Virus record (IMG/VR): IMGVR_UViG_3300048026_001045
Coordinates: 1-24,111 of that record
Source of the DNA: a virus
Length of the DNA stretch: 24,111 nt
Strand: one strand, 5' to 3'
Under the pieces are notes generated by a model. The model was given only the letters and a program-made list of their open reading frames with translations. It made no database searches and had not been told where the DNA came from. Position 1 is the first letter of the stretch. Every line of letters starts with the position of its first letter. This document shows, one piece after another, positions 4,468 through 24,111 of this stretch. The position numbers were made by a program, and so were the translations under genes.

Positions 4468-5214
4468 ATGGCTGCAACATTAACATTAAGATCTGTAAAG
4501 GGCACTCCTCTTACAAATAACGAGGTAGACGCTAACTTTACTAATTTAAATTCGGAAATTTCCACACTGGAATCAGATGTTAGCACTGCACAATCCGATA
4601 TTGTTGCATTAGAAGGATCAGTAGGTCCATCAGCAATTGGAGAAACAGTAGCTGACATTGTTGGAAATATGGTAACAAGCAATACAGAATCTGGAATTTC
4701 TGTTTCATATGATGATAATGATAACACTTTAGATTTTGATGTAGCTGATTTTACATTAACTATTGATGGAGATGCATCTGGTAACGCAACGATTTCTAAT
4801 CTTGCAAATGCTACTTTAACTCTAGATATTTCTTCTATTATTGGATCATTAAATGTGGGCGGAGGTATTAGTACTTCTGATTTATCTATGACAGGGTCTA
4901 TTACTAACGGCGTAGATGCTACTTTTACTGGCGACGTTAACGCAGCTAATTTTAATACAACGTCAGATATAGCTCTTAAAGATAATGTTGAGTTGATTGA
5001 ATCTCCATTAGATAAACTTTTGCAATTATCAGGTTATACCTTTGATTGGAAAAACAACGGAAAGTCCTCTGTTGGTGTTATGGCACAAGAAGTTGAAAAA
5101 GTATTTCCTCAAATTGTGTCTACTGATAATAACGGTGTAAAAAGAGTTTCTTATGATTCTCTTATTCCACTATTGATTGAGGCAATTAAAGAATTATCAA
5201 ATCTTAAAAAATAA
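4468..5214 (+). CDS. Short tail fiber protein with C-terminal S74 intramolecular chaperone/autoprotease domain
   Basis: The protein has 248 residues. The N-terminus (LTLRSVKGTPLTNNEVDANF) is a common start of phage fibers, followed by a short coiled coil (about residues 25-50) and beta-rich repeats. Residues 166-248 are a peptidase S74 domain: SDIALKDNV at 166-174, then FDWK, GVMAQEVEKVFPQIV and a helical LLIEAIKELSNL end. In the endosialidase family this domain trimerises the fiber and cuts itself off with a Ser-Lys pair spaced five residues apart. Ser166 and Lys171 have that spacing, so cleavage just before Ser166 is expected. TAGGA at 4454-4458 is the ribosome-binding site. The segment VADIVGNMVTSNTESGI and the S74 domain are paralogous to the end of the 727-residue fiber at 14039-16222. 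Confidence 0.85.
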   Translation: MAATLTLRSVKGTPLTNNEVDANFTNLNSEISTLESDVSTAQSDIVALEGSVGPSAIGETVADIVGNMVTSNTESGISVSYDDNDNTLDFDVADFTLTIDGDASGNATISNLANATLTLDISSIIGSLNVGGGISTSDLSMTGSITNGVDATFTGDVNAANFNTTSDIALKDNVELIESPLDKLLQLSGYTFDWKNNGKSSVGVMAQEVEKVFPQIVSTDNNGVKRVSYDSLIPLLIEAIKELSNLKK

Positions 5215-5243: not shown

Positions 5244-6950
5244 ATGGCAATTAAAGTATCGGGTACTACCGTTGTTGATAACAGTAGGAACCTAACAAAT
5301 GTCGAGTCAGTCTCGGTATCAGGTACAGGGTTTTTAGCCCTACCTGCAGGTACTACAGCTGAACGACCAAGCTCACCTTCTAATGGTATGGTGCGCTATA
5401 ATACAACAACAAACCAAACAGAAGTATATGCTAATGGAGCATGGGGTGGATTAGGTGCAGATCTAATTGCATTTAACAATACTGTACAAAGTAGCTATAC
5501 AATAAATGAAAATGCTTCATTTGACGAATATATGAATGCTACTTCAGCATTTACTGGAACATCAGGCATTACTTACTCAATTTCGTCTGGGTCTCTTCCA
5601 GCAAATATGTCGTTGAATACAAGCAATGGTCGCGTTTCAGGTAATGCTCCTGATTTAACTGCAACTACAACTTATACAGTTACATTTGAAGCTGATGATG
5701 GCATTAATACTACTTTAAAAACAATAGACTTTGTTATTAATGCTGATAACGATGCTCCTATATGGAATACTGGTGCGGATCTAGGTACAGCAACCGGTGG
5801 CTCTTTTTCAAGAACACTTCAAGCAACTGATCCTGAAGGCCAAACAATAACATATGCACTGGCTAGTGGATCTTCTTTGCCTCCTAACACTACATTGAAT
5901 TCTTCAAGTGGTATTCTTTCAGGCACTTCTACTACAACAGGAACATCATATAGCTTTACAATTAATGCATCTGATGGTACTAATACTGTTGGACGTACGT
6001 TTACTCTTCTTTATGGATATCCAACTGTTGGATCAGATGGCCAATCATATGCCGGTGGTACAGTTATTAGCTCTGGTACTGGTGTACAATGGTTTAATAA
6101 TTCGACGAACAATCAATCGCATACATTTACAGTTCCAAATACTTCTTCAGTTAACGTAGTAGTAGTTGGTGGTGGCGGCGGTGGCGGTCCAAACGGTGAT
6201 ACACAACATGGTGGTGCTGGTGGTGCTGGTGCACACGGAAACTATTCAGTTAGTTCTGGTCAAAGCTATACAGTAAATGTAGGTAAAAAAGGAGAAGCTA
6301 CAACAAGTTCTAGTAATTCTACAGGCGGAACTTCTTCTTTTGGTCCATTTATTTCAGCTGGTGGTGGTATTGGATCTTACCAAATTCAATATCTTCCTCT
6401 TGGAGGAAGCGCATCAGGCGGAAATAGTGTAAACAGTAATGGTGGCCGTGGTGGTTTTGGTACTTCAGTACCTACCGATATGGGTTGGTATAATCAGTAT
6501 CCAAGTTATCCACAACAAGCTACTTCAGGTTATGCCGGTGGTGGCGGTGGTGGTACACCTTGGTCATCTTCATCTGCTTCTGGTGCTAGAAATGGCGCAT
6601 CTGCTAGTGGTAAATTTGGCGGTGGTGGCGGTGGTGCTGCTCGTCAAGCTTACTCAGGTAGTGGTGGTTCACCAGCAGGTAGTGCAGGCGGCGGCGGTAG
6701 CGATGGATACGCTGGTGGCGCAGGTGCTTCTACATTTAACTCTGGTTCTGCAGGTGGTGGTCCAGTTGGTGGTAGCGCAGGCCACGGTAGCTGTGATCCA
6801 CGTGGTTGTAACCACGCTTGTACATCTCAAGGCGGTGGCGGAGGTGGATCCTTCGGCGGCGGTGGTGGTGCTTCAGGTGGCTGGGGCGGAGGCGGCGGCC
6901 AAGGTGCCGGCGGTCTTGTCATTGTCAACTGGGGTAACGTATCCCACTAA
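5244..6950 (+). CDS. Glycine-rich tail fiber/adhesin with two Ig-like domains
   Basis: The protein has 568 residues. Residues 1-70 are a typical fiber N-terminus (LPAGTTAERP, GMVRYNTTTNQTEVYANG). Two putative Ig-like beta-sandwich domains of the cadherin/He_PIG type follow at about 72-167 and 168-256, with paired signatures LPANMSLNTSNGRVSG and LPPNTTLNSSSGILSG. Residues 305-568 are extremely glycine-rich with runs of five to seven Gly, separated by short variable loops rich in Tyr, Trp and Ser. Gly-rich domains of this kind occur at tips of phage adhesins such as gp38 of T4-like phages, where the loops contact the receptor. Only three cysteines exist, clustered with two histidines at 514-526 (HGSCDPRGCNHAC), perhaps a metal site or disulfide. 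A strong AAGGAG site precedes the start. The halogenase gene follows after 30 bp. Receptor binding is inferred. Confidence 0.85.
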   Translation: MAIKVSGTTVVDNSRNLTNVESVSVSGTGFLALPAGTTAERPSSPSNGMVRYNTTTNQTEVYANGAWGGLGADLIAFNNTVQSSYTINENASFDEYMNATSAFTGTSGITYSISSGSLPANMSLNTSNGRVSGNAPDLTATTTYTVTFEADDGINTTLKTIDFVINADNDAPIWNTGADLGTATGGSFSRTLQATDPEGQTITYALASGSSLPPNTTLNSSSGILSGTSTTTGTSYSFTINASDGTNTVGRTFTLLYGYPTVGSDGQSYAGGTVISSGTGVQWFNNSTNNQSHTFTVPNTSSVNVVVVGGGGGGGPNGDTQHGGAGGAGAHGNYSVSSGQSYTVNVGKKGEATTSSSNSTGGTSSFGPFISAGGGIGSYQIQYLPLGGSASGGNSVNSNGGRGGFGTSVPTDMGWYNQYPSYPQQATSGYAGGGGGGTPWSSSSASGARNGASASGKFGGGGGGAARQAYSGSGGSPAGSAGGGGSDGYAGGAGASTFNSGSAGGGPVGGSAGHGSCDPRGCNHACTSQGGGGGGSFGGGGGASGGWGGGGGQGAGGLVIVNWGNVSH

Positions 6951-6980: not shown

Positions 6981-8474
6981 ATGAAAAAAATTAACAATAT
7001 TTGTATTGTTGGCGGAGGATCGGCAGGTTGGATGACTGCCGGTCTTCTCGCTAAAAATCTTCCCTCATTTATAAAAGTAACTTTAGTTGAATCTCCAAAT
7101 ATTCCTACAGTAGGAGTTGGAGAAGCAACTTTAGTTTCGTTTAGAAATTTTATGAATGATTGCGGATTCGATGAAGATAAGTGGATAGATGAAGTTGATG
7201 GACTTTATAAATGTGGAATTAAATTTATAGATTGGATAGAAAAAGGACATATTATATGGCATCCTTTTACTTCACTAGCCCAACCAACACATGATTTAAC
7301 CTCAGCACATTTATATAAAAATAGTGTTAACAATAATTTTGAAGAATTTTCTAAGTATTGTATTCCAAATTATACCTCTACAGTTGAGCACGAAAAAATT
7401 GATGAATCAAATGTTGGCTATCATGTAGATGCTGCTAAATTAGCAAGATTTTTTATTAATAACAACGAATCTGTAAATCATATTTTAGCACATGTAGAAA
7501 AAGTCAATACTGAAAACAACCAAATTTCTTCTATTGTTTTGGATAATGGTAATATAATTGAAGCTGATATATTTGTAGATTGTACAGGTTTTAAGAATCT
7601 TGTTTCTTCTAATATTGATGGAGCAAAATGGATAAATAAATCAGAGTATTTAGGAGCTAACGCAGCTGTCGCAGCTCCAGTAAAATATGATGATCCATCT
7701 ATTGAAATGAAGCCATTTACAACCGCAAAATGCTTAGATATTGGATGGATGTGGATAACTCCAGTCCAAAGTAGAATTGGATCAGGAATAGTATTTAATA
7801 AAGATATTACTCCAGTAGAAGAAGCTATGGAAACCTATGATAGTATATGGAATAAAGACCGTAGATTAAAAGATTTTAATGTTATTTCATTTGAGCCAAA
7901 ATATAATAAAAGATCTTGGAGAAGTAATGTTGTTTCTATTGGTTTATCTTCTGGATTTGTAGAGCCCTTAGAATCTTCTGGTTTAGAATTTATTATACAA
8001 GGAGCTTCTGTGCTATTAAGTAGAATTCGCAAAGGTTATTTTATAGAATCAGATGCGGATTTTTATAATGCTAGAATGTCATTCCAATACGAAGAAACTT
8101 TTAATTTTATTCAACTTCATTATTTGAATAGTAAAAGAGAATCTAAATATTGGGATTTTATACGCAATAAGCCTATTCAAAACGAACTTCTACAAAAAAT
8201 AGAATATTATAAAGATCATGGTTTACAGTTTAGAGAAATGCCCGGTGATTCTATTTTTGCGCATCATAGTTGGATCATCTTAATGGAAGGTGCTGGAATT
8301 GATGGAGGATTTTCTTCGTACATTCCAAAAGAATCTGCTATAGAATTGCTAAATGATAGATACCGTTTACACGAAATGCAAACTCACCAGAATAGATTTA
8401 CAAACTTTGAAGTTATGAATAGAAGAAAAGCTGTAAATAATTTTAAAGGTTTAATAGAAAATGGAAAACAGTAA
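6981..8474 (+). CDS. Flavin-dependent halogenase (tryptophan-halogenase family, PF04820; VirX1-like)
   Basis: The protein has 497 residues (PrnA has 538). FAD-dependent halogenases use FADH2, O2 and halide to make hypohalous acid, which is guided by a lysine to an aromatic or other electron-rich substrate. Visible features: the FAD-binding GGGSAGW at 11-17; GVGEAT at 45-50; Lys77 in YKCGIKF, aligned with catalytic Lys79 of PrnA (FKAAIKF); the family motif FxxPxxSxG at 326-334; and Glu331, aligned with PrnA Glu346. The WxWxIP motif that marks these enzymes is altered to WMWITP at 256-261. No flavin reductase gene is visible, so FADH2 would come from the host. Viral members are known: VirX1 of cyanophage Syn10 is an iodide-preferring halogenase. 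The stop overlaps the next gene by 14 nt. Family assignment is firm; substrate and halide preference are unknown. Confidence 0.93.
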   Translation: MKKINNICIVGGGSAGWMTAGLLAKNLPSFIKVTLVESPNIPTVGVGEATLVSFRNFMNDCGFDEDKWIDEVDGLYKCGIKFIDWIEKGHIIWHPFTSLAQPTHDLTSAHLYKNSVNNNFEEFSKYCIPNYTSTVEHEKIDESNVGYHVDAAKLARFFINNNESVNHILAHVEKVNTENNQISSIVLDNGNIIEADIFVDCTGFKNLVSSNIDGAKWINKSEYLGANAAVAAPVKYDDPSIEMKPFTTAKCLDIGWMWITPVQSRIGSGIVFNKDITPVEEAMETYDSIWNKDRRLKDFNVISFEPKYNKRSWRSNVVSIGLSSGFVEPLESSGLEFIIQGASVLLSRIRKGYFIESDADFYNARMSFQYEETFNFIQLHYLNSKRESKYWDFIRNKPIQNELLQKIEYYKDHGLQFREMPGDSIFAHHSWIILMEGAGIDGGFSSYIPKESAIELLNDRYRLHEMQTHQNRFTNFEVMNRRKAVNNFKGLIENGKQ

Positions 8475-9180
8475 GTTAACTATAATTATTATTTACAAAG
8501 ATACTCCCTTTGACCCTAATAATCATATGATTAGATCAATATATGATTTACAAGAAGCAATCAATATAATTCAAGAGTATTGTAGTCAAAGAGATTTCAA
8601 AGTTGAAGAAAAAATAATTTTACAATATGATGGTTCTAATATTCTGGAAATAGATTCAGATATTATTTGTCCTGATCTTTTCAAAGATGAATTTCAACTT
8701 TTTGCTTTATTTAATTCTAAAGAATTAATTGAAAAATCTCATGGGTATTATAACTTTCCTCAAGATGGGTGGAAAGAAGATATAAAAGTAAAGAGGTATC
8801 CTCACTATTTTAAAATACTATTAAAAAGTGATATTTCAGATGATATTGAGGATAAAGAAGTTAAAAGAAGAATTTTAGCAATATTTAAAGATTATTGTAA
8901 TAGATCCTTGAATCAATACATTGCTATTGAACCTGGAGTAATGGTAGACTATAATAAACTTAAAGATGTACGTCATCTTTCACAAGATCAATCAACAAAA
9001 ATTGCTAAAATAATAAGAGAAGTTAGAAAAAAAGAATCCGAATATGAAGATATTATAAATAACATTGAGGATCCAAAAGTAATATACGATTATTATGTTG
9101 AGGGCCCTGATGAATTATTTGTTATATTAGATAAATATCAAATTACTCGACCTACAGAGTTTAAAGGAGAAAATATATGA
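8461..9180 (+). CDS. Unknown protein, middle gene of the halogenase cassette
   Basis: This gene encodes 239 residues and I recognise no family. The N-terminus (KLTIIIIYKDTPFDPNNH) looks like a first beta-strand of a mixed alpha/beta fold rather than a signal peptide. The protein is soluble-looking, rich in Lys, Asp, Glu and Ile, with an aromatic stretch GYYNFPQDGW near residue 95 and a charged helical region at about 165-205 (IAKIIREVRKKESEYEDIINNIED). I see no Walker, HxD or nucleotide-binding motif, and no flavin reductase signature. The start ATG lies inside the 3' end of the halogenase gene (14-nt overlap) and the stop overlaps the following ATG (ATGA). The three products are therefore very likely made together, and a function connected with the halogenase or with fiber maturation is possible but unproven. 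Confidence 0.75.
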   Translation: MENSKLTIIIIYKDTPFDPNNHMIRSIYDLQEAINIIQEYCSQRDFKVEEKIILQYDGSNILEIDSDIICPDLFKDEFQLFALFNSKELIEKSHGYYNFPQDGWKEDIKVKRYPHYFKILLKSDISDDIEDKEVKRRILAIFKDYCNRSLNQYIAIEPGVMVDYNKLKDVRHLSQDQSTKIAKIIREVRKKESEYEDIINNIEDPKVIYDYYVEGPDELFVILDKYQITRPTEFKGENI

Positions 9181-9803
9181 CATACGCAGTAATCCAACAC
9201 GGTGTTGTTAATAGCTTACACGCGGAAGATCCTTCCGACAATTACCATCCAGACGTTGAAATTATAGAAATCACAGGAGCGCTTGATGGCGTTATTGATG
9301 ATTTACTAATTGAAAATGTACCAGTTGACTGGAATGGTAGTAATTTTAGTATGAATTTAGATTCACTTAAAAAATATATGAGACATCAAGTAAAAGAAGC
9401 TCGTAAATATAAAGAAGCTGATGGAATTTGGGTAGATGGAAAAAGATACCACTCAGATAGAGAATCAATTGTCTTAATCCAAGGCTCAAAGGTTTTATTT
9501 GACTCGGATTCTTCGTTAGTTATTTCATTTAAAGCAGATCCAGAGCCATTAAGAACACCATTAGATCCAGAATCTGCAGAAGGAAATCTGTCTATCAGTG
9601 AAGACATTGATAAAAATGCAGATTGGGTAGAAGTTGATGCAACTGCGTTTGCAGCAATTCATGATGCAATGTTAAACCATGTTTCAAAATGCTTTAAAGC
9701 TGAAAAAGCTGTTAATGACCAACTCACTGCAGCTTCTAGTCAAGCGGCATTAGTAGCTATGAAACCTTCAACATTATTTGATACAGCATTTGATGCACTT
9801 TAA
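9177..9803 (+). CDS. DUF4376-type protein, possible tail fiber assembly factor
   Basis: The protein has 208 residues. The C-terminal two thirds match the DUF4376 pattern as I recall it: a helix with KEARKYKEADGIWVDGKRYHSD near residues 73-95, an IVLIQG segment, then DWVEVDATAFAAIHDAMLNHVSKCFKAEKAVND near 150-185. This family is common in tailed phages next to tail fiber genes, often annotated as tail fiber assembly or chaperone proteins. The N-terminus (MTYAVIQHGVV) is the usual short beta-hairpin start of such proteins. It overlaps the upstream gene by four bases (ATGA) and is the last gene before a strong terminator. The placement behind a glycine-rich fiber and the halogenase suggests that it helps to fold, assemble or modify fibers; that role is inferred. 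Confidence 0.75.
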   Translation: MTYAVIQHGVVNSLHAEDPSDNYHPDVEIIEITGALDGVIDDLLIENVPVDWNGSNFSMNLDSLKKYMRHQVKEARKYKEADGIWVDGKRYHSDRESIVLIQGSKVLFDSDSSLVISFKADPEPLRTPLDPESAEGNLSISEDIDKNADWVEVDATAFAAIHDAMLNHVSKCFKAEKAVNDQLTAASSQAALVAMKPSTLFDTAFDAL

Positions 9804-9921: not shown

Positions 9922-10257
9922 ATGGCCGTATATGCTAATCTAGTCGTTGATCAAGGTTCTGATTTTAACGTAGTAATTGACGTTGTAAATAATGCTGGTT
10001 CAATAGACATTAGTACTTATACGTATAGAGGTCAAGTTAGAAAAACATATTCTTCTTCCACGGCCGTAGACTTTTATACGTCTTCAAATGATCCGGCCAA
10101 TGGGAAGTTAGAAGTATCTCTAAGCTCAGCGCAAACTAGCGTGATGAAGGCGGGACGATATGTATATGATGTAGAAGTTGTTGACACTATTGGTAATGTT
10201 ACTCGTGTTGTGGAAGGTCAACTAGAAGTTACACCTAGAGTCACAAGGAGTTCATAA
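9922..10257 (+). CDS. Small beta-sandwich virion protein
   Basis: The protein has 111 residues. The whole sequence looks like one compact Ig-like or BppU-N-like beta-sandwich: LVVDQGSDFNVVIDV, then YRGQVRKTYSS, a VSLSSAQTSVMKAGRYVYDVEVVD core and a terminal VVEGQLEVTPRV strand. The last strands strongly resemble small structural proteins that attach fibers or decorate baseplates in marine T4-like phages. There is no signal peptide, membrane segment or cysteine. It is the first gene behind two tandem late promoters, with a TAGGA ribosome-binding site 11 nt before the ATG. The next gene follows after 3 bp. A structural role is likely from fold pattern and position; its exact place in the virion is unknown. 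Confidence 0.75.
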   Translation: MAVYANLVVDQGSDFNVVIDVVNNAGSIDISTYTYRGQVRKTYSSSTAVDFYTSSNDPANGKLEVSLSSAQTSVMKAGRYVYDVEVVDTIGNVTRVVEGQLEVTPRVTRSS

Positions 10258-16263: not shown

Positions 16264-17013
16264 ATGGCGAATCCAAGTACAAGACAAGAATTAATAGATT
16301 ATGCATTAAGGCGCTTGGGTTCGCCTGTCATCGAAATTAATGTAGATGATGACCAAATAGAAGATCGTGTGGATGATGCTCTTCAATTCTACCAAGAGTA
16401 TCATTCAGACGCTACTATGAGAGTCTATTTGAAACATCAAATAACAGCATCTGATGTTTCAAATGGATATGTTACTCTAAATGACAATATACTTTATGTC
16501 AAAAGAGTATTTCCTATCGGTGATTCACAATCATCAATAAATATGTTTTCTGTAAAATATCAAATGAATTTAAATGATATATATGATTTGTCATATATTG
16601 GCGATCTAATGTATTATGAAATGGTCCAATCATATATTTCTTTATTAGATACGAAATTAAATGGAAATGGCGAATTTGTAAGATTTAATCGACATATGAA
16701 TGAATTGCATCTAGATGTTGATTGGGGAGCGGATATAAAGGAAAATGACTACATTATTGTTGAATGTATGAGAATAGTAGATCCCTCTACTTATTCTGAT
16801 GTTTATAACGATATGTTTTTAAAGCAGTATTTAACAGCGCTTATTAAGCAGCAATGGGGCGCCAATCTCATTAAATTTGAAGGTATGCAACTTCCTGGTG
16901 GAGTTACATTAAATGGCAGACAAATATTTGATGATGCAACTGAAGAACTTTCTCAAATTAGAGAGCAGATGCAGCTTAATTATGAAATGCCAGTTGATTT
17001 TTATGTAGGATAA
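16264..17013 (+). CDS. 13: Neck protein gp13 (head completion)
   Basis: The protein has 249 residues (T4 gp13 has 309). The N-terminal segment, STRQELIDYALRRLGSPVIE followed by INVDDDQIEDRVDDALQFYQ, is characteristic of gp13 of T4-like phages. The middle contains a beta-rich body and the C-terminus is helical (EELSQIREQMQL). In T4, gp13 and gp14 form the neck that closes the filled head below the portal and makes the docking surface for the tail. The ribosome-binding site is TAGGA at 16250-16254. The gene opens an operon with gp14 (4-bp gap), gp15, gp16 and gp17, as in T4. Assignment rests on sequence pattern and gene order; both agree. Confidence 0.92.
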   Translation: MANPSTRQELIDYALRRLGSPVIEINVDDDQIEDRVDDALQFYQEYHSDATMRVYLKHQITASDVSNGYVTLNDNILYVKRVFPIGDSQSSINMFSVKYQMNLNDIYDLSYIGDLMYYEMVQSYISLLDTKLNGNGEFVRFNRHMNELHLDVDWGADIKENDYIIVECMRIVDPSTYSDVYNDMFLKQYLTALIKQQWGANLIKFEGMQLPGGVTLNGRQIFDDATEELSQIREQMQLNYEMPVDFYVG

Positions 17014-17017
17014 TGGT

Positions 17018-17941
17018 ATGGCAACAAATGTATATTTTAGCCAAAAAGTAAGAACAGAACAAAATCTTTATGAAGATATAGTAATAGAATCTCTAAAGAT
17101 GTATGGGCAAGATGTATATTACTTGCCTCGTACAATCGTTTCAGAAGATAGAATATTAAATGAAGATATTGAATCTAATTTCGATGATGCTTATATTATT
17201 GAAATGTATATTGCTAATATTGATGGATTTGAAGGTGATGGTAATCTATTATCAAAATTTGGCGTAGAAATTAGAGATCAAGCTAATTTTATTGTTTCTA
17301 GAAGACGTTGGGAAAATTATATTCAGCGGTTAGAAGATACCTATAAAGTTAGACCAATGGAAGGTGATTTAATTTATTTACCTTTGTCTGGTTCTTTATT
17401 TGAAATTAGATTTGTAGAACATGAGAATCCATTTTATCAATTATCAAATCTTCCTACATACACGCTGCAATGCGAATTATTTGAATACTCAGGCGAATCA
17501 ATTAATACTGGAATTACAGAACTAGATAATATTAATAAAGCTATTTCTCAGCAAACTACTATTATTGTTAACAATACTAATGGTACTAATTTTATTGAAA
17601 ACGAAAATATTCGTCAAGAAATTGCTGCTGAACCTGGTGAATATATCACTGGAAGAGTAACAGATTTTACTATTGTCGATTCTACTACTTCAAGAGTAAT
17701 TATTACCGATTGGGCTACGACTAATGGTAAAGTTGTAGATTTTCAAGTAGATGGTAATAAACTAACTGGTTTAGAATCAGGAGCTGAATGGGATATTGTA
17801 AATGTGCATGGCATTGAAGACGATCCTTCTAAAAATCAATTTGTAAATGATTATCAAGCAAGAAACCAAGATTTTGAAGTTGAAGGTGATGGAATTATTG
17901 ACTTTACTGAATCTAACCCATTCGGTGAAATTGGAGATTAA
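17018..17941 (+). CDS. 14: Neck protein gp14 (head completion)
   Basis: The protein has 307 residues (T4 gp14 has 256). The N-terminus MATNVYFSQKVRTEQNLYED, then MYGQDVYYLPR and EDRILNEDIESNFDDAY, matches the gp14 pattern of T4-like phages. RRRWENYI and RPMEGDLIYLPLSGSLFEI are further landmarks, and LPTYTLQCELFEYSGESI lies near residue 145. The C-terminal part (from about 180) is an added Asn/Thr-rich and beta-like extension, which explains the greater length compared with T4. Together with gp13 it completes the head before tail attachment. Its ATG lies 4 bp after the gp13 stop, and gp15 follows after 2 bp. Identity is secure from sequence and order. Confidence 0.93.
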   Translation: MATNVYFSQKVRTEQNLYEDIVIESLKMYGQDVYYLPRTIVSEDRILNEDIESNFDDAYIIEMYIANIDGFEGDGNLLSKFGVEIRDQANFIVSRRRWENYIQRLEDTYKVRPMEGDLIYLPLSGSLFEIRFVEHENPFYQLSNLPTYTLQCELFEYSGESINTGITELDNINKAISQQTTIIVNNTNGTNFIENENIRQEIAAEPGEYITGRVTDFTIVDSTTSRVIITDWATTNGKVVDFQVDGNKLTGLESGAEWDIVNVHGIEDDPSKNQFVNDYQARNQDFEVEGDGIIDFTESNPFGEIGD

Positions 17942-17943
17942 TT

Positions 17944-18714
17944 ATGCTAAATGAACATTTCTATCACGCATCTATTCGTCGAACAATTGCTGCTTTTGGA
18001 ACAATATTTAATAATATTAACGTGGTTCGCAAAGATTCTAATGATGAAGTTAAAAGTATTTTAAGAGTTCCATTAGCATATGGACCAAAACAAAAATTTC
18101 TTGCAAGAATAGAAGGTCAAACTGATTTTGAAGATCCAAAAGTAGGAATTAAATTACCAAGAATGTCTTTTGAGATTGCTGGATTAACCTATGATGCTGC
18201 ATCTAAACTACCTAAAATGAATAAAGTAGTTCAAAATAATTCTATTGCTGATTACACAAAAAGAAATACTCTTTATACTTATAGTCCATATACAATGAGT
18301 ATTGAATTGGCTATTATGGCTAAAAACCAAGACGATGCTTTACAAATTGTAGAACAAATTATTCCATATTTCCAACCTGATTACACAATAACTATAAATG
18401 AAATTCCTTCAATGGGAATTAAAAACGATATTCCTATTGTACTAAGTGGTGTTAACTTATCTGAAGATTATGAAGGTGACTTTTTATCTAGGCGAGCAAT
18501 TGTTTATACCTTAAGTTTTGATCTTCGTGTTCGTTTTTATGGGCCAGTAAAAGAACAAAAAGTTATTCAAATTGCTGATGTCGATATGATTAATACAAGT
18601 CAAGATCCATTTGGATTTTTAGAAGAATATGTTGCTGATGGGTCAGCTGCTGATGGTAATTTTGATAATGTAATTACTGGAAAAGACGAGACTGATGATG
18701 GAGCAATTACATAA
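17944..18714 (+). CDS. 15: Tail completion/sheath stabiliser gp15
   Basis: The protein has 256 residues (T4 gp15 has 272). The sequence FYHASIRRTIAAFGTIFNNI, followed by LRVPLAYGPKQKFLAR and PRMSFEIAGLTYDAASKLPK, is typical of gp15. In T4, gp15 forms a hexameric ring at the end of the finished tail, stabilises sheath and tube, and connects to the neck. The late part (DFLSRRAIVYTLSFDLRVRF) forms the conserved beta core, while the C-terminus is acidic (GKDETDDGAIT). Its stop overlaps the ATG of gp16 by one base (TAATG). Identity is supported by motif and by position between gp14 and the terminase genes. Confidence 0.95.
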   Translation: MLNEHFYHASIRRTIAAFGTIFNNINVVRKDSNDEVKSILRVPLAYGPKQKFLARIEGQTDFEDPKVGIKLPRMSFEIAGLTYDAASKLPKMNKVVQNNSIADYTKRNTLYTYSPYTMSIELAIMAKNQDDALQIVEQIIPYFQPDYTITINEIPSMGIKNDIPIVLSGVNLSEDYEGDFLSRRAIVYTLSFDLRVRFYGPVKEQKVIQIADVDMINTSQDPFGFLEEYVADGSAADGNFDNVITGKDETDDGAIT

Positions 18715-19064
18715 TGAAGAGTGATAAAGACGATATTGATGACGATTATGACTTTGCTAGAGCAAAGTATTATAATTTGTCTGAAAAAGGCGATGAAGCA
18801 ATAGATCTTATGATGGAATTAGCGAGGGAATCCGAACATCCTCGTGCTTTTGAAGTATTATCGAATATGATGAAACAAAACGCAGAAATTACTGATAGAC
18901 TAATGGAACTTCAAAATAAAAAGAAAGAAGTTCGTTTAAAAGACGCAAAAGCACTTCCAAATAAAATGACACAAAATAATGTATATGTAGGTTCTTCAAC
19001 TGACCTGCAAAGAATGCTATTGAAAAAAATGGAAGAAACAGATGTCATCGACTCTGAAGAATAA
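18714..19064 (+). CDS. 16: Terminase small subunit gp16
   Basis: The protein has 116 residues (T4 gp16 has 164). It is acidic at the N-terminus (SDKDDIDDDYDFARAKYYNL) and mostly helical, with a central coiled-coil-like stretch (MKQNAEITDRLMELQNKKKE). The C-terminal MTQNNVYVGSSTDLQRML motif is shared with other T4-like small terminase subunits. gp16 forms a ring that recognises the concatemeric DNA and controls the large subunit gp17 during packaging initiation. It starts in the TAATG overlap with gp15 and its end overlaps the gp17 start by 23 nt, which keeps the two terminase subunits in fixed proportion. The assignment rests mainly on position and the C-terminal motif. Confidence 0.92.
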   Translation: MKSDKDDIDDDYDFARAKYYNLSEKGDEAIDLMMELARESEHPRAFEVLSNMMKQNAEITDRLMELQNKKKEVRLKDAKALPNKMTQNNVYVGSSTDLQRMLLKKMEETDVIDSEE

Positions 19065-20643
19065 TGAACTTGGCTATCTTGGCAATCCAAACGTTAAACG
19101 CGATGGTGTAGAACAAGAATGGACTCAGGAAGAAATTAAAGAATACGCAAAATGTATGAAGAATCCTTCATATTTTGCTAGAACATATTTAAAAGTTATT
19201 TCTCTTGATAAAGGATTAGTTCCATTTGATCTATATCCATACCAAGAAGAAATGTTTAAGCATTTCAACGATAATAGATTTTCAGTAGTTTTAGCATGTA
19301 GGCAATCAGGTAAATCTATTAGCTCTGTTGCATATCTTCTATGGTATGCTATTTTCAATCCAGAAAAAACAATTGCAATTCTTGCTAACAAAGGGTCTAC
19401 TGCTAGAGAAATGCTAGCAAGAATTACTCTTATGTTAGAAAATATGCCATTCTTTTTACAGCCTGGAGCTAAAGCTTTAAATAAAAGCTCTATTGAATTT
19501 TCCAACAACTCTAGAATTATAGCTGCTGCAACCTCGGGTTCTTCTATTCGCGGCATGTCTGTGAATTTATTATTTTTAGACGAATTTGCTTTTGTTGAAA
19601 ACGACTCAGAATTTTATACTTCAACTTACCCCGTTGTATCTTCTGGTGATTCTACACGAGTCATTATTACTAGTACTGCAAATGGAGTTGGTAATGTATA
19701 TCATAAAATTTGGGAGGGTGCAGTTCAATCAACTAATGAATATAAGCCTTTTAGAGTAGATTGGTGGGATGTTCCAGGCCGAGATGAAGCTTGGAGACAA
19801 ACAACAATTAATAACACATCTGAATTACAATTCCAACAAGAATTCGGTAATACCTTTCATGGAACCGGTAATACTCTTATTGCCCCAGAAATTCTTCTTA
19901 AATTACAAGCCAAAGAACCTATTGGCAGAGTTGATAATTTAAGAATTTATAAAGAGCCAGAAGAAGCCCATGAATATATGATATTTGTAGATGTTGCAAA
20001 GGGAAGAGGCCAAGACTATTCTGTTTTTAACATTATAGATATGTCTGTAAGACCTTTTGAACAAGTAGCAGTTTATCAAGACAATACTATATCTCCATTG
20101 CTACTTCCCGATATAATATATAAGTATGCAAATAGATATAATCATGCGTATGTTGTTGTTGAAAATAATGACCAAGGTTCAGTTGTTTGTAATGGTTTAT
20201 ATTATGATTTAGAATATGAGAATGTGTTTGTTGAGTCTGCAGTTAAGGCCAATGCTATTGGTGTTACAATGACTCGTAAAGTAAAAAGAATTGGTTGCTC
20301 AAATATGAAAGATTTAATAGAGCAGCAAAAATTAGTAATTAATGATGCAGAAACTATTTTAGAATTATCTACATTTGAAGCCAGAGGAAATTCTTTTGAA
20401 GCTTCTTCAGGCAATCATGACGATATTGTTATGAGTTTAGTTTTATTTGGTTGGTTTTCAACCAATGCATTTTTCGCCGAGCTTACGGATATTGATATGA
20501 AATCTTTGTTATATTCAGAAAGAATTAAAGCTATGGAAGAAGATATAGTTCCAGTTGGCTTTTTTGATGATGGTAGAGAAGATAAGTATGAAACAGACAG
20601 CGATGGAGTTGTCTGGGAAGCAGTAAATACTGGAATTTATTAA
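19042..20643 (+). CDS. 17: Terminase large subunit gp17 (ATPase-nuclease packaging motor)
   Basis: The protein has 533 residues (T4 gp17 has 610). N-terminal ATPase: Walker A CRQSGKS at 86-92, Walker B LLFLDE with catalytic Glu181, and the coupling motif ITSTANG at 209-215. C-terminal RNase H-like nuclease: Asp317 in FVDVAKGRGQD, Glu374 in VVVENND and the NHDDIVMS motif at 458-465 provide the three metal-binding acids that correspond to T4 D401, E458 and D542. The protein cuts concatemeric DNA and pumps it through the portal by ATP hydrolysis. All catalytic residues are present and no frameshift is visible. It starts inside the gp16 gene (23-nt overlap) after a GGAAG site. The shorter length comes mainly from the N-terminus. 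Confidence 0.98.
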   Translation: MSSTLKNNELGYLGNPNVKRDGVEQEWTQEEIKEYAKCMKNPSYFARTYLKVISLDKGLVPFDLYPYQEEMFKHFNDNRFSVVLACRQSGKSISSVAYLLWYAIFNPEKTIAILANKGSTAREMLARITLMLENMPFFLQPGAKALNKSSIEFSNNSRIIAAATSGSSIRGMSVNLLFLDEFAFVENDSEFYTSTYPVVSSGDSTRVIITSTANGVGNVYHKIWEGAVQSTNEYKPFRVDWWDVPGRDEAWRQTTINNTSELQFQQEFGNTFHGTGNTLIAPEILLKLQAKEPIGRVDNLRIYKEPEEAHEYMIFVDVAKGRGQDYSVFNIIDMSVRPFEQVAVYQDNTISPLLLPDIIYKYANRYNHAYVVVENNDQGSVVCNGLYYDLEYENVFVESAVKANAIGVTMTRKVKRIGCSNMKDLIEQQKLVINDAETILELSTFEARGNSFEASSGNHDDIVMSLVLFGWFSTNAFFAELTDIDMKSLLYSERIKAMEEDIVPVGFFDDGREDKYETDSDGVVWEAVNTGIY

Positions 20644-20646
20644 TAT

Positions 20647-20654
20647 TATAAATA
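20647..20654 (+). promoter_or_regulatory. T4-type late promoter for gp18-gp19
   Basis: Exact TATAAATA, starting 4 bp after the gp17 stop and 79 bp before the gp18 ATG. The leader holds a weak hairpin (ATACGA at 20656-20661 with TCGTAT at 20674-20679) and ends in a strong GGAGAGG ribosome-binding site. This fits the high output needed for sheath and tube. Confidence 0.75.
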
Positions 20655-20733
20655 TATACGAGTGACAAACAATTCGTATTATGAAATCATATAATTATCC
20701 CGAGCTTATAATCTTTTTTGGAGAGGAATAAAA

Positions 20734-22413
20734 ATGGCTTTTCAAGTATCACCAGGAGTTCAGGTCAAAGAAATTGACCTAACGAATGTTGTTCCAGCTG
20801 TATCATCATCTATTGGTGGTTTTGCTGGCGCATTCAACTGGGGGCCAGTAGAAGAAATGCGCACAGTTGGTTCAGAAAAAGAACTTGCTGCAATTTTCGG
20901 TACCCCAGACAGCGTAACTGCGTCTTACTTTTTAACAGCTGCTAGCTTCTTAAACTATGCGAACGCATTAAAAGTTGTACGTGTTGCAACTGATAATCTT
21001 AATGCTTCAACTGGTTCAGCTGGCCAGCTAATTAAAAATCGTGACGCTTACGATTCAGCAGTAATCCCACACGAGTGGGTTGCTAAATATCCAGGAACAT
21101 TAGGTAATGCACTAACAGTTTCAATGTGTCCAGCAGACTCAGCAGCGTTTAGTGCATGGGCTTATGCCGGTCAATTCGATGCAGCACCTGCAACATCTGA
21201 TTGGGCTTCTGAAAGAAGTTCTTCTAATGATGAAATGCATATTGCAGTTATCGATAGAACAGGAGCATGGACAGGCACCCCAAACACAGTTTTGGAAGTT
21301 TGGCCTTTTGTGTCTCAAGCGGCAGAAGCTAAAACTCCACAAGGAGTTTCTAACTACTATGCAGATGTTTTAAACGACAATTCAGCATATGTATGGTTTG
21401 GCGTGGCGCACTCATCATTAGTGCATTCCGGTAAAGATAGTGGCGATTATGCCGGAGACTATCTTGACACTATTACACCAGCTATTATCGAAGAAAATAT
21501 GGCACATGGTACTGATGATAACGTACCTACAGTTGGAGAATTGCAAACCGGATATGACATGTTCGAAGATGCAGAAACTGTAGATGTTAATTTAATATTC
21601 TCAGTTCCAGGAATAAATAGTGGTGACGACGTTACTTTAGCTAATGACTTGCTAAGCATTGCAACAAATCGTAAAGATGCTGTTGCGTTTATTTCGCCTC
21701 CAATCGAGGACACCGTAGGAACGGCCACACCGGCAGCTGATGTAAAAGCATTTGCTGATCAATTAACATCAACTTCATATGGTATGATCGATTCCACTGC
21801 ACTTAAAGTATATGACAAATATAATGACACATATCGCTGGATTCCAGCATGTGGTCATATGGCTGGCTTATGTGCAAATACAGATAATGTAGCTGACACA
21901 TGGTTCTCACCAGCTGGTTTAAACCGTGGTCAACTATTAGGTATTACAAAAGTTGCTTTTAATCCAAAGCAAGCTGATCGTGATACACTTTATAAAGCAC
22001 GTATTAATCCAATCGTATCTTTCCCTGGACAGGGTACTGTATTATATGGCGATAAGACGGCTCAATCTAAGCCATCTGCATTTGACCGTATTAATGTACG
22101 TAGATTGTTCATTGTTTTAGAAAAAGCGATTGCGACTGCTGCTAAATATCAACTCTTTGAATTCAACGACGAATTTACCCGTGCAATGTTCCGTAATATG
22201 GTAGAACCATTCTTACGTGATGTTAAGGGTCGTCGTGGGCTTACAGACTTTGCGGTTGTTTGTGATGCAACAAATAACACAGGTGAAATTGTAGATTCAA
22301 ACCGCTTTGTGGCTGATATCTATATTAAACCTGCCCGTTCAATTAACTTCATCACATTGAACTTCATCGCGACTCGTACTGGCGTTGAATTCTCTGAAAT
22401 TATTGGTCAATAA
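20734..22413 (+). CDS. 18: Tail sheath protein gp18
   Basis: The protein has 559 residues (T4 gp18 has 659). The N-terminus FQVSPGVQVKEIDLTNVVPA and SSIGGFAGAFNWGPVEE is typical of T4-type contractile sheath proteins. The C-terminal conserved domain is present: TKVAFNPKQADRDTLYKARI, then INVRRLFIVLEKAIATAAKY, FEFNDEFTRAMFRNMVEPFL and DIYIKPARSINFITLNFIAT. Sheath subunits form hexameric rings around the tube and contract to drive it through the cell envelope. The shorter length probably reflects reduced surface domains in the middle (about 130-350). A late promoter and a strong ribosome-binding site precede it, and gp19 follows after 12 bp with its own AAGGAG. Codon use looks more C-ending than in the neck genes, as expected for high expression. 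Confidence 0.97.
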   Translation: MAFQVSPGVQVKEIDLTNVVPAVSSSIGGFAGAFNWGPVEEMRTVGSEKELAAIFGTPDSVTASYFLTAASFLNYANALKVVRVATDNLNASTGSAGQLIKNRDAYDSAVIPHEWVAKYPGTLGNALTVSMCPADSAAFSAWAYAGQFDAAPATSDWASERSSSNDEMHIAVIDRTGAWTGTPNTVLEVWPFVSQAAEAKTPQGVSNYYADVLNDNSAYVWFGVAHSSLVHSGKDSGDYAGDYLDTITPAIIEENMAHGTDDNVPTVGELQTGYDMFEDAETVDVNLIFSVPGINSGDDVTLANDLLSIATNRKDAVAFISPPIEDTVGTATPAADVKAFADQLTSTSYGMIDSTALKVYDKYNDTYRWIPACGHMAGLCANTDNVADTWFSPAGLNRGQLLGITKVAFNPKQADRDTLYKARINPIVSFPGQGTVLYGDKTAQSKPSAFDRINVRRLFIVLEKAIATAAKYQLFEFNDEFTRAMFRNMVEPFLRDVKGRRGLTDFAVVCDATNNTGEIVDSNRFVADIYIKPARSINFITLNFIATRTGVEFSEIIGQ

Positions 22414-22425
22414 GGAGAATAAACA

Positions 22426-22959
22426 ATGGCTATCTTAGGCGTAGATGATTTCAAATCAAAACTAGTCGGTGGTGGTGCACGTTCCAACTTATTTAAAGTT
22501 GAAATGGGTTTCCCAGCCGGTATCGCAGGTGCGGCCGAGTCTGAAATTGGTGGCTTTTTAATTAAAGCAGCACAGCTCCCAGCTTCCGTTATTGCACCTA
22601 TCACAGTCCCATTCCGTGGACGCCAACTTCAAATTGCGGGTGACCGTACATTTGAACCTTGGACAATCACAATCTTAAATGATACAAACTTCATTCTTCG
22701 GAATGCATTCGAGCGTTGGATGAACTATATCAACTCTCACAATGCAAACACAGGTGAAGTTACGCCATCTAACTATTTTGCTGATGCAGCAGTTTATCAG
22801 CTAGATAAAGATGGAAATTCAGTCAAAGGTTATACTTTCCGCGGCATGTGGCCAACGAATGTTGCAGCAATTGACGTATCATTTGATAACGAAAATGCTA
22901 TTGAGGAGTTTACAGTTGAACTTCAAGTACAGTATTGGGAATCAAACACCACTACTTAA
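22426..22959 (+). CDS. 19: Tail tube protein gp19
   Basis: The protein has 177 residues (T4 gp19 has 163). The segments DFKSKLVGGGARSNLFKVEM, LIKAAQLPASVIAPITVPFR and GRQLQIAGDRTFEPWTITIL are the characteristic tail tube pattern. A helical FERWMNYINSHN and a final beta-strand EFTVELQVQYWES complete the T4-type tube fold. The protein stacks as hexameric rings that form the inner conduit for DNA. It directly follows gp18 with a strong AAGGAG site, so sheath and tube come from the same message. A hairpin terminator that also touches the gp20 promoter follows 17 bp after the stop. Identity is secure. Confidence 0.97.
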   Translation: MAILGVDDFKSKLVGGGARSNLFKVEMGFPAGIAGAAESEIGGFLIKAAQLPASVIAPITVPFRGRQLQIAGDRTFEPWTITILNDTNFILRNAFERWMNYINSHNANTGEVTPSNYFADAAVYQLDKDGNSVKGYTFRGMWPTNVAAIDVSFDNENAIEEFTVELQVQYWESNTTT

Positions 22960-22964
22960 TGGCA

Positions 22965-22972
22965 TATAAATA
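22965..22972 (+). promoter_or_regulatory. T4-type late promoter for gp20, next to a terminator hairpin
   Basis: Exact TATAAATA, starting 5 bp after the gp19 stop. Given the T4 late start distance, initiation falls near 22978, at the left arm of the hairpin at 22977-22998. Confidence 0.7.
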
Positions 22973-22976
22973 ATAG

Positions 22977-23004
22977 CAGAGGGGTTTTATCCCCTCTGTT
23001 TATT
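22977..23004 (+). terminator. Intrinsic terminator after gp19
   Basis: An 8-bp perfect stem CAGAGGGG (22977-22984) with CCCCTCTG (22991-22998) encloses a 6-nt loop TTTTAT and is followed by TTTATT. It should stop much of the gp18-gp19 transcription before gp20. The late promoter box ends 4 bp before it. Confidence 0.85.
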
Positions 23005-23023
23005 ATAACGTAGGAAAAATTAA

Positions 23024-24111
23024 ATGGCGGAAATATTTGGGTTTGAGATTAAGCGAAAAGAGCAAGAACAAGAAGATAAGAAAAAACAGTCTTTTGTTGC
23101 TCCTTTAGAAGATGATGGTTCTAGTTATATTCAGGCCGGAGGTTACTTTGGTCAATATGTTGATATGTCTGGAACAGAAGGCGCTAAATCTGAAGCTGAT
23201 TTAATTCGTAGATACCGCGATATTGCACAGCATCCAGAGTGTGATGCAGCAATTGAAGATATTGTAAATGAATCTATTGTTTCTGATTACACATCAGCAC
23301 CTATAGAACTACTTACTGATGAGTTAAAACAACCAAATAATGTTAAAAAACTAATTAGAGAAGAATTCGAAAACGTAATTTCTCTTTTACAATTTAATCA
23401 TTATGGTCATGAAACATTTCGTAAGTGGTATGTAGACGGTAGATTGTTTTACCATATTATTATTGATGAAAGCAGTCCAAAAAAAGGAATTTTAGAATTA
23501 AGACCAGTTGATCCAACTAGAATTCGTAAAGTAAAAGAAATTGATTCTCAAAAAGATCCAAAAACTGGTGCAGATATTATTAAAAGTATTGACGAATACT
23601 ATCTTTATCAAGATAGCTCCATGAGCAAATCCAATCAAGGATTAAAAATCTCAAAAGATGCAATTCAATATACAACATCAGGTCTACTAGATTCTTCTCG
23701 TAAAAAAGTTCTTTCATATTTGCATAAGGCAATTAAACCAGTCAATCAACTACGAATGATGGAAGACTCTTTGGTAATTTATAGATTATCAAGAGCTCCA
23801 GAACGTAGAATTTTTTATATTGACGTGGGAAATCTTCCAAAAGGTAAATCGGAAGAATACTTGCGTGGCATTATGAACCAATATCGTAATAAATTAGTAT
23901 ACGACGCGTCAACTGGCGAAATTAAAGATGACCGTAAACATATGTCAATGCTAGAAGATTTTTGGCTACCACGTCGTGAAGGAGGTAGAGGTACAGAAAT
24001 TTCGACTCTTCCTGGTGGTGAAAATTTAGGCCAAATTGATGACATTATTTATTTTCAAAAGAAATTATATAAATCATTAAATGTTCCAGTGAATAGATTA
24101 GAACAAGAAGC
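23024..24111 (+). CDS. 20: Portal vertex protein gp20, 3' end outside the window
   Basis: The ATG at 23024 follows TAGGA (23011-23015) with an 8-nt spacer. The frame stays open for 362 codons to the window end, so the gene is cut (T4 gp20 has 524 residues). The translation starts MAEIFGFEIKRKEQEQEDKK, an acidic and basic N-terminal tail, then AGGYFGQYVDMSG, RRYRDIAQHPECDAAIEDIV and NESIVSD. The hallmark RLSRAPERRIFYIDVGNLPK is present near residue 260, followed by EYLRGIMNQYRNKLVYD, a MLEDFWLPRREGGRGTEIST segment and LPGGENLGQIDDI. gp20 makes the dodecameric portal ring through which gp17 packages DNA and to which the neck binds. Identity is certain; the C-terminal third cannot be seen. Confidence 0.97.
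   Translation, partial: MAEIFGFEIKRKEQEQEDKKKQSFVAPLEDDGSSYIQAGGYFGQYVDMSGTEGAKSEADLIRRYRDIAQHPECDAAIEDIVNESIVSDYTSAPIELLTDELKQPNNVKKLIREEFENVISLLQFNHYGHETFRKWYVDGRLFYHIIIDESSPKKGILELRPVDPTRIRKVKEIDSQKDPKTGADIIKSIDEYYLYQDSSMSKSNQGLKISKDAIQYTTSGLLDSSRKKVLSYLHKAIKPVNQLRMMEDSLVIYRLSRAPERRIFYIDVGNLPKGKSEEYLRGIMNQYRNKLVYDASTGEIKDDRKHMSMLEDFWLPRREGGRGTEISTLPGGENLGQIDDIIYFQKKLYKSLNVPVNRLEQE

Follow-up and report, generated by a model that had tools for sequence, protein, structure and literature searches.

The window, as we call the whole stretch of 24,111 nucleotides analysed here (positions 1 to 24,111 of IMG/VR virus record IMGVR_UViG_3300048026_001045), contains a phage gene for a full-length variant-A flavin-dependent halogenase with all catalytic residues, placed just downstream of a gene for a glycine-rich tail protein. 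Its location, the co-occurrence of both types of genes in other phages, and the precedents of peptide halogenases and glycine-rich tail tips tentatively suggest that the target of the enzyme is the phage's own tail-tip protein, the single best reading of the locus, which we hold at somewhat less than even confidence. The features of the halogenase gene are the following:

6981 to 8474, plus strand: flavin-dependent halogenase (PF04820) of 497 aa, assigned by ORF, Pfam, PHROG, PDB and predicted structure
7011 to 7031, plus strand: GGGSAGW (residues 11-17), with the FAD-binding GxGxxG motif at residues 11-16
7209 to 7211, plus strand: Lys77, at the position of the catalytic Lys in alignments with Thal and VirX1
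7746 to 7763, plus strand: WMWITP, a variant of WxWxIP, residues 256-261
7956 to 7982, plus strand: FVEPLESSG, residues 326-334, which fits FxxPxxSxG and holds Glu331

The ORF begins with ATG and is not interrupted by internal stop codons. The encoded protein matches the Pfam profile Trp_halogenase (PF04820) from position 1 to 444 of 458 with an E-value of 4.7e-100 and 336 bits at a cut-off of 21, and PHROG 2928 'tryptophan halogenase' with an E-value of 2e-106. Moreover, it matches 31 distinct PDB sequences, with Thal and related tryptophan halogenases yielding the best matches (228 bits, over residues 3-411) and VirX1 scoring 180 bits. In a pairwise alignment Lys77 and Glu331 fall on the catalytic Lys and Glu of Thal, and both residues are invariant across a 34-row alignment. 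Correspondingly, position 77 is Lys in 83/83 viral and 80/80 bacterial relatives, and position 331 is Glu in 84/84 and 80/80, respectively. An AlphaFold (AF2) model built from 34 viral homologues reached a pLDDT of 91 and a pTM of 0.91, and a Foldseek comparison placed it at TM 0.82-0.89 to PyrH, Thal, PrnA and BrvH. The protein thus combines the full-length profile match above the cut-off, the flavin, Lys, Glu and tunnel motifs and the two-domain fold of variant A of PF04820. These results bear out the first-pass annotation with regard to the position of the gene and of each motif and to the retention of the catalytic residues.

In this family, a reductase provides FADH2, and O2 and halide are converted at the flavin to hypohalous acid, which passes through a tunnel to the Lys, while the Glu assists the attack on the aromatic ring. 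The window protein is likely to be active as a halogenase.

The first-pass annotation had further suggested kinship with VirX1 of cyanophage Syn10 (PDB 6QGM). Both proteins are viral variant-A halogenases of the same superfamily with the same catalytic residues, and both genes lie closely downstream of genes for glycine-rich tail proteins. However, the two proteins share only 27% identity, and the window protein is placed in a well-supported, exclusively viral clade of 45 sequences (support 0.989) that contains neither VirX1 nor any sampled bacterial sequence, and hence does not group with the VirX1 clade. Membership in the superfamily therefore stands, but tree and identity rule out a close relationship. 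In addition, VirX1 carries WVWNVP in place of WMWITP, and it belongs to a tandem halogenase pair with 2OG oxygenases nearby, whereas the window encodes a single copy. The closest relative found is a halogenase of record IMGVR_UViG_3300020444_000010 (L001), with 49% identity over residues 1-488 and a support of 0.996. With the bacterial enzymes PyrH, Thal, PrnA and RebH the window protein shares the fold (TM 0.82-0.89), the FAD motif, the catalytic Lys and Glu and a WxWxxP motif, but the identity is about 25-31%, the Trp4 motif is missing and Trp1 differs. The fold is likewise shared with BrvH and Xcc4156 (TM 0.84-0.89 to the model), and BrvH is reported to lack Trp4 as well (PMC8269204). A close bacterial origin was also considered and rejected: a single-sequence scan of genome contigs yielded no match, and a profile scan returned only relatives with 29-35% identity. 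Judged by sequence, the window halogenase is a further divergent member of the known viral halogenase family.

The WMWITP motif had been described in the first-pass annotation as a modified WxWxIP motif. The exchange of Ile for Thr is real, and the window protein thus deviates from the strict motif, but it is not unusual. Among 84 viral relatives position 5 is Ile in 61, Thr in 16, Ala in 4 and Val in 3, whereas 80 bacterial relatives carry Ile (77) or Val (3) and Thr in none. Among the relatives, the two Trp residues are conserved, and so is nearly every Pro. Since VirX1 has Val at this position and 16 of the 84 viral relatives have Thr, the strict motif is not truly defining; together with the WMWVIP motif of the nearest relative, this makes WMWITP a common kind of viral variation, and the counts in both sets of relatives rule out its novelty. 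The sampled bacterial relatives mostly carry WQWRIP, unlike the viral clade. A sub-group of viral halogenases (L025, L043, L053 and L065) has a bacterial-like WRWRIP and S-SSM7-like neighbourhoods.

With regard to the substrate, we followed the Trp1/Trp4 scheme that defines groups A and B of free-tryptophan halogenases (PMC8269204). Trp1 of the window protein reads ATLVSF, as opposed to ATIP, ATVP or ATFS in free-tryptophan enzymes, and a search for Trp4 patterns, for which the set compared included no positive control, found none in the protein. The window protein thus fits neither group, and because Trp4 is lacking and Trp1 is atypical, free tryptophan is an unlikely substrate as far as these motifs indicate. 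The statement of the first-pass annotation that the substrate is not predictable from the sequence holds.

The record is a 24-kb fragment, in which the halogenase gene is surrounded by the following genes:

4468 to 5214, plus strand: tail-fibre protein with Peptidase_S74 intramolecular chaperone (Pfam, PHROG)
5244 to 6950, plus strand: tail protein of 568 aa with a phage structural N-terminus, two He_PIG Ig-like domains and a Gly_rich_2 C-terminal domain (Pfam, PHROG)
8461 to 9180, plus strand: orphan ORF of 239 aa, which overlaps the end of the halogenase gene by 14 bp
9177 to 9803, plus strand: DUF4376 protein, PHROG 'tail fiber protein' (Pfam, PHROG)
9922 to 10257, plus strand: tail protein of 111 aa, PHROG 'L-shaped tail fiber protein assembly', the synteny anchor in relatives
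16264 to 24109, plus strand: T4-like block of gp13, gp14, gp15, gp16, gp17, gp18, gp19 and portal, some of the names being based on gene order and homology

As the T4-like block from gp13, which starts at 16264, to the portal gene follows downstream, the halogenase gene lies within the structural module, in agreement with the earlier claim of a phage-encoded enzyme. The tail sheath is matched best by Methylophilales phage Melnitz and Pelagibacter phage HTVC008M and not by cyanophages, which makes a marine heterotroph the likely host. None of 44 gp13-related contigs with at least 2.5 kb upstream of gp13 has a halogenase gene in that region, and none is annotated in the stretch of Melnitz-2 that was examined; hence, the halogenase is accessory in this lineage.

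The stop codon of the gene for the 568-aa tail protein is located 30 bp upstream of the halogenase start. This protein also matches PHROG 863 'tail fiber assembly' (E 3e-7), and its likeness to the Syn10 type is in part due to low complexity. The AT-rich 239-aa ORF (25% GC) has no relatives in the phages, IMG/VR and the other collections searched; Pfam yielded only a sub-threshold Rad60-SLD match, and a single-sequence model reached a pLDDT of 42. We grouped loci of this kind as tail-module halogenase cassettes. The window shows the halogenase next to a glycine-rich tail gene in the region between the tail genes and gp13, but it lacks nearby 2OG-Fe(II) oxygenases, a label that does not occur anywhere in the 24 kb.

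In other phages such oxygenases are found at this position. A gp13 relative (L203) has the order S74-like protein, glycine-rich protein, small protein, two 2OG-Fe(II) oxygenases, 301-aa protein, 111-aa protein and gp13, the two oxygenases thus occupying the slot of the halogenase in the window phage. In the closest relative L001 a collagen-like glycine-rich tail gene likewise precedes the halogenase gene, and three 2OG-Fe(II) oxygenases follow in place of the 239-aa orphan. In L183, a relative of the window phage with 72% by gp13, a heme oxygenase and a ferredoxin-dependent bilin reductase adjoin a 2OG oxygenase just upstream of the 111-aa tail gene (423-1650), and the halogenases of L010 and L012 are flanked by genes resembling this set.

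Cyanophage halogenases of the VirX1 type occur in the same setting. In Syn10 two Gly_rich_2 tail proteins are followed by a 164-aa protein, VirX1, a second halogenase and several 2OG oxygenases, and a similar order is present in P-TIM40, S-WAM1, Sf-FP1, S-RIM44, S-CREM1 and P-RSM6. The Syn10 gene after VirX1 (HQ634191.1, 16511-18103) is annotated as 'hypothetical protein' and encodes a full-length halogenase (PF04820, E 5e-105); VirX1 and its neighbour therefore form a tandem. Such pairs, or runs of three halogenases, are common in viral loci. In S-CREM1 (L178, 7302-16781) one glycine-rich 'collagen-like' gene and a halogenase gene precede eight annotated 2OG-Fe(II) oxygenases and a JmjC protein, an unusually long oxygenase run for a tail module. 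When phage records were searched with the glycine-rich protein of Sf-FP1 (E<=1e-3), the family was found in 20 cyanophage records, 20/20 of which are halogenase-positive, with a halogenase nearby, although these correspond to perhaps nine independent phages and the record counts therefore overstate the case. For the 164-aa protein, strong matches fall in these 20 records as well. By comparison, any halogenase is present in 70 records and a cyanophage-type gp13 in 512. A search for solved structures resembling the glycine-rich proteins returned nothing significant.

The S-RIM44 records provide a contrast, as the cassette of glycine-rich genes, halogenases and 2OG oxygenases is either there as a whole or missing altogether. 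In five records the glycine-rich genes, the small gene and the tail halogenases are present; four records have none of these, their sole halogenase lying far away, near 167 kb. In the one pair compared (KX349297, L176, without the cassette, and KX349294, L177, with it), the flanks are 94-95% identical, whereas the tail genes between them reach at most about 70%, and a 294-aa protein, which is not glycine-rich, and proteins of 121 and 199 aa take the place of the cassette. As the cassette is replaced together with the tail block, it moves with the tail genes.

The linkage was further assessed by permutation, with labels shuffled 2000 times within each of 67 dereplicated viral loci on the basis of approximate gene calls. 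In this test, which was chosen after the pattern had been seen and for which several radii were tried, 2OG genes adjoined the halogenase in 34 cases versus 21.4 expected (2/2000 shuffles), and glycine-rich genes were present within three genes in 29 versus 20.2 expected (8/2000) and within five genes in 41/48 versus 29.7 expected (0/2000). At a distance of one gene glycine-rich genes were rarer than expected (3 versus 8.1), a pattern that fits an intervening small gene or oxygenases, and at a distance of two genes no difference was observed.

We therefore considered what the enzyme might modify. By the established mechanism of the family, a reductase, probably that of the host, would supply FADH2, hypohalous acid formed from O2 and halide at the flavin would travel through the tunnel to Lys77, and Glu331 would assist the attack on an aromatic ring. 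Because the gene lies inside the tail-fibre block, the enzyme is probably made late, together with the tail proteins. It would then act as a post-translational tail-modifying enzyme, most likely on aromatic side chains of the 568-aa glycine-rich protein encoded upstream, and the same may hold for the 2OG-Fe(II) oxygenases that other phages encode at this position. Halogenases acting on ribosomal peptides exist, as exemplified by MibH and SrpI (PMC12615548), and in gp38 tail tips of the T2 type glycine-rich motifs carry the receptor-binding loops (PMC12892980). The more general proposition, that flavin-dependent halogenases of marine T4-like phages, acting by themselves or together with 2OG-Fe(II) hydroxylases, halogenate aromatic residues on the glycine-rich tail-tip proteins of the phages themselves, is put forward more guardedly still, as a possibility.

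Several observations run counter to the tail as the target. The region between the tail genes and gp13 is a variable site that also gathers heme oxygenase, bilin reductase and sugar genes; cargo at this site need not act on tails, and the neighbourhood is no proof of the substrate. Many glycine-rich tail proteins lack an adjoining halogenase, and a folded tail protein must present the ring to a buried active site. Such cargo could represent an auxiliary metabolic gene, the product of which would act during infection inside the host by halogenating a small molecule such as indole, a quorum signal or some other secondary metabolite. Antibiotic protection has been proposed in this regard, though called speculative there (PMC2984593), as have a halogenated amino-acid or sugar metabolite for S-SSM6a (PMC7824862) and altered host metabolites (PMC10452541), and in vitro numerous small aromatic compounds serve as substrates of VirX1 (PMC8407142). 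Outside the tail block, the halogenases of P-SSM2, S-PM2, Syn1 and S-MbCM6 lie in auxiliary metabolic gene islands (photosynthesis or tRNA islands), that of S-SSM7 sits with carbamoyltransferase and sugar-nucleotide genes, and that of S-B64 is found among replication genes. The window, however, contains no metabolic partner gene, and its enzyme has no Trp4 motif for free tryptophan. Moreover, neither the strict co-occurrence of VirX1-type halogenases with one family of glycine-rich tail genes nor their joint presence or absence in S-RIM44 is expected for free cargo. We regard a metabolic role of the window enzyme as less likely than tail modification, though as one of its two main rivals. A single role for all phage halogenases is unlikely.

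The link to the tail module could alternatively arise because it is the receptor, and not the tail, to which the enzyme is matched, as expected if the enzyme, elsewhere together with 2OG oxygenases, altered the host surface or host proteins, for instance to block adsorption of competitors or to counter defence. Capsule decoration has been suggested (PMC7824862), and the S-SSM7 type lies with sugar-nucleotide genes. Nevertheless, in the 497-aa sequence, read without a dedicated predictor, nothing was noted that would point to a signal or to secretion, the modelled fold is that of a plain soluble halogenase, and the window is devoid of surface-biosynthesis genes. We regard a host-directed function, the other main rival, as less probable than a metabolic role. 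Least probable, and by a wide measure doubtful, is a non-working halogenase, that is, conversion by the WMWITP change into a monooxygenase or an inactive protein. WxWxIP, from which the window protein deviates at position 5, has been suggested to keep the substrate away from the flavin and to block monooxygenation; several active halogenases, however, lack the motif or its variants (PMC8407142). Against this reading stand the unaltered catalytic Lys and Glu, the preserved FxxPxxSxG tunnel motif, the wide variation of position 5 among viral relatives, including the active VirX1 with Val, the retention of both Trp and nearly all Pro, and an intact ORF with a confidently modelled fold.

None of the papers found in our search of the literature proposes that halogenases modify phage tails, and the published proposals for the natural role of phage halogenases, VirX1 included, are metabolic guesses. 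To our knowledge, no halogenated virion protein has been described so far. Halogenation of tail-tip proteins by enzymes of marine T4-like phages, if true, would yield the first one, would give receptor binding a chemistry that the 20 amino acids do not offer, and would imply that some 'auxiliary metabolic' halogenases are virion-modification enzymes. As a divergent viral halogenase, the enzyme is also of moderate biocatalytic interest.
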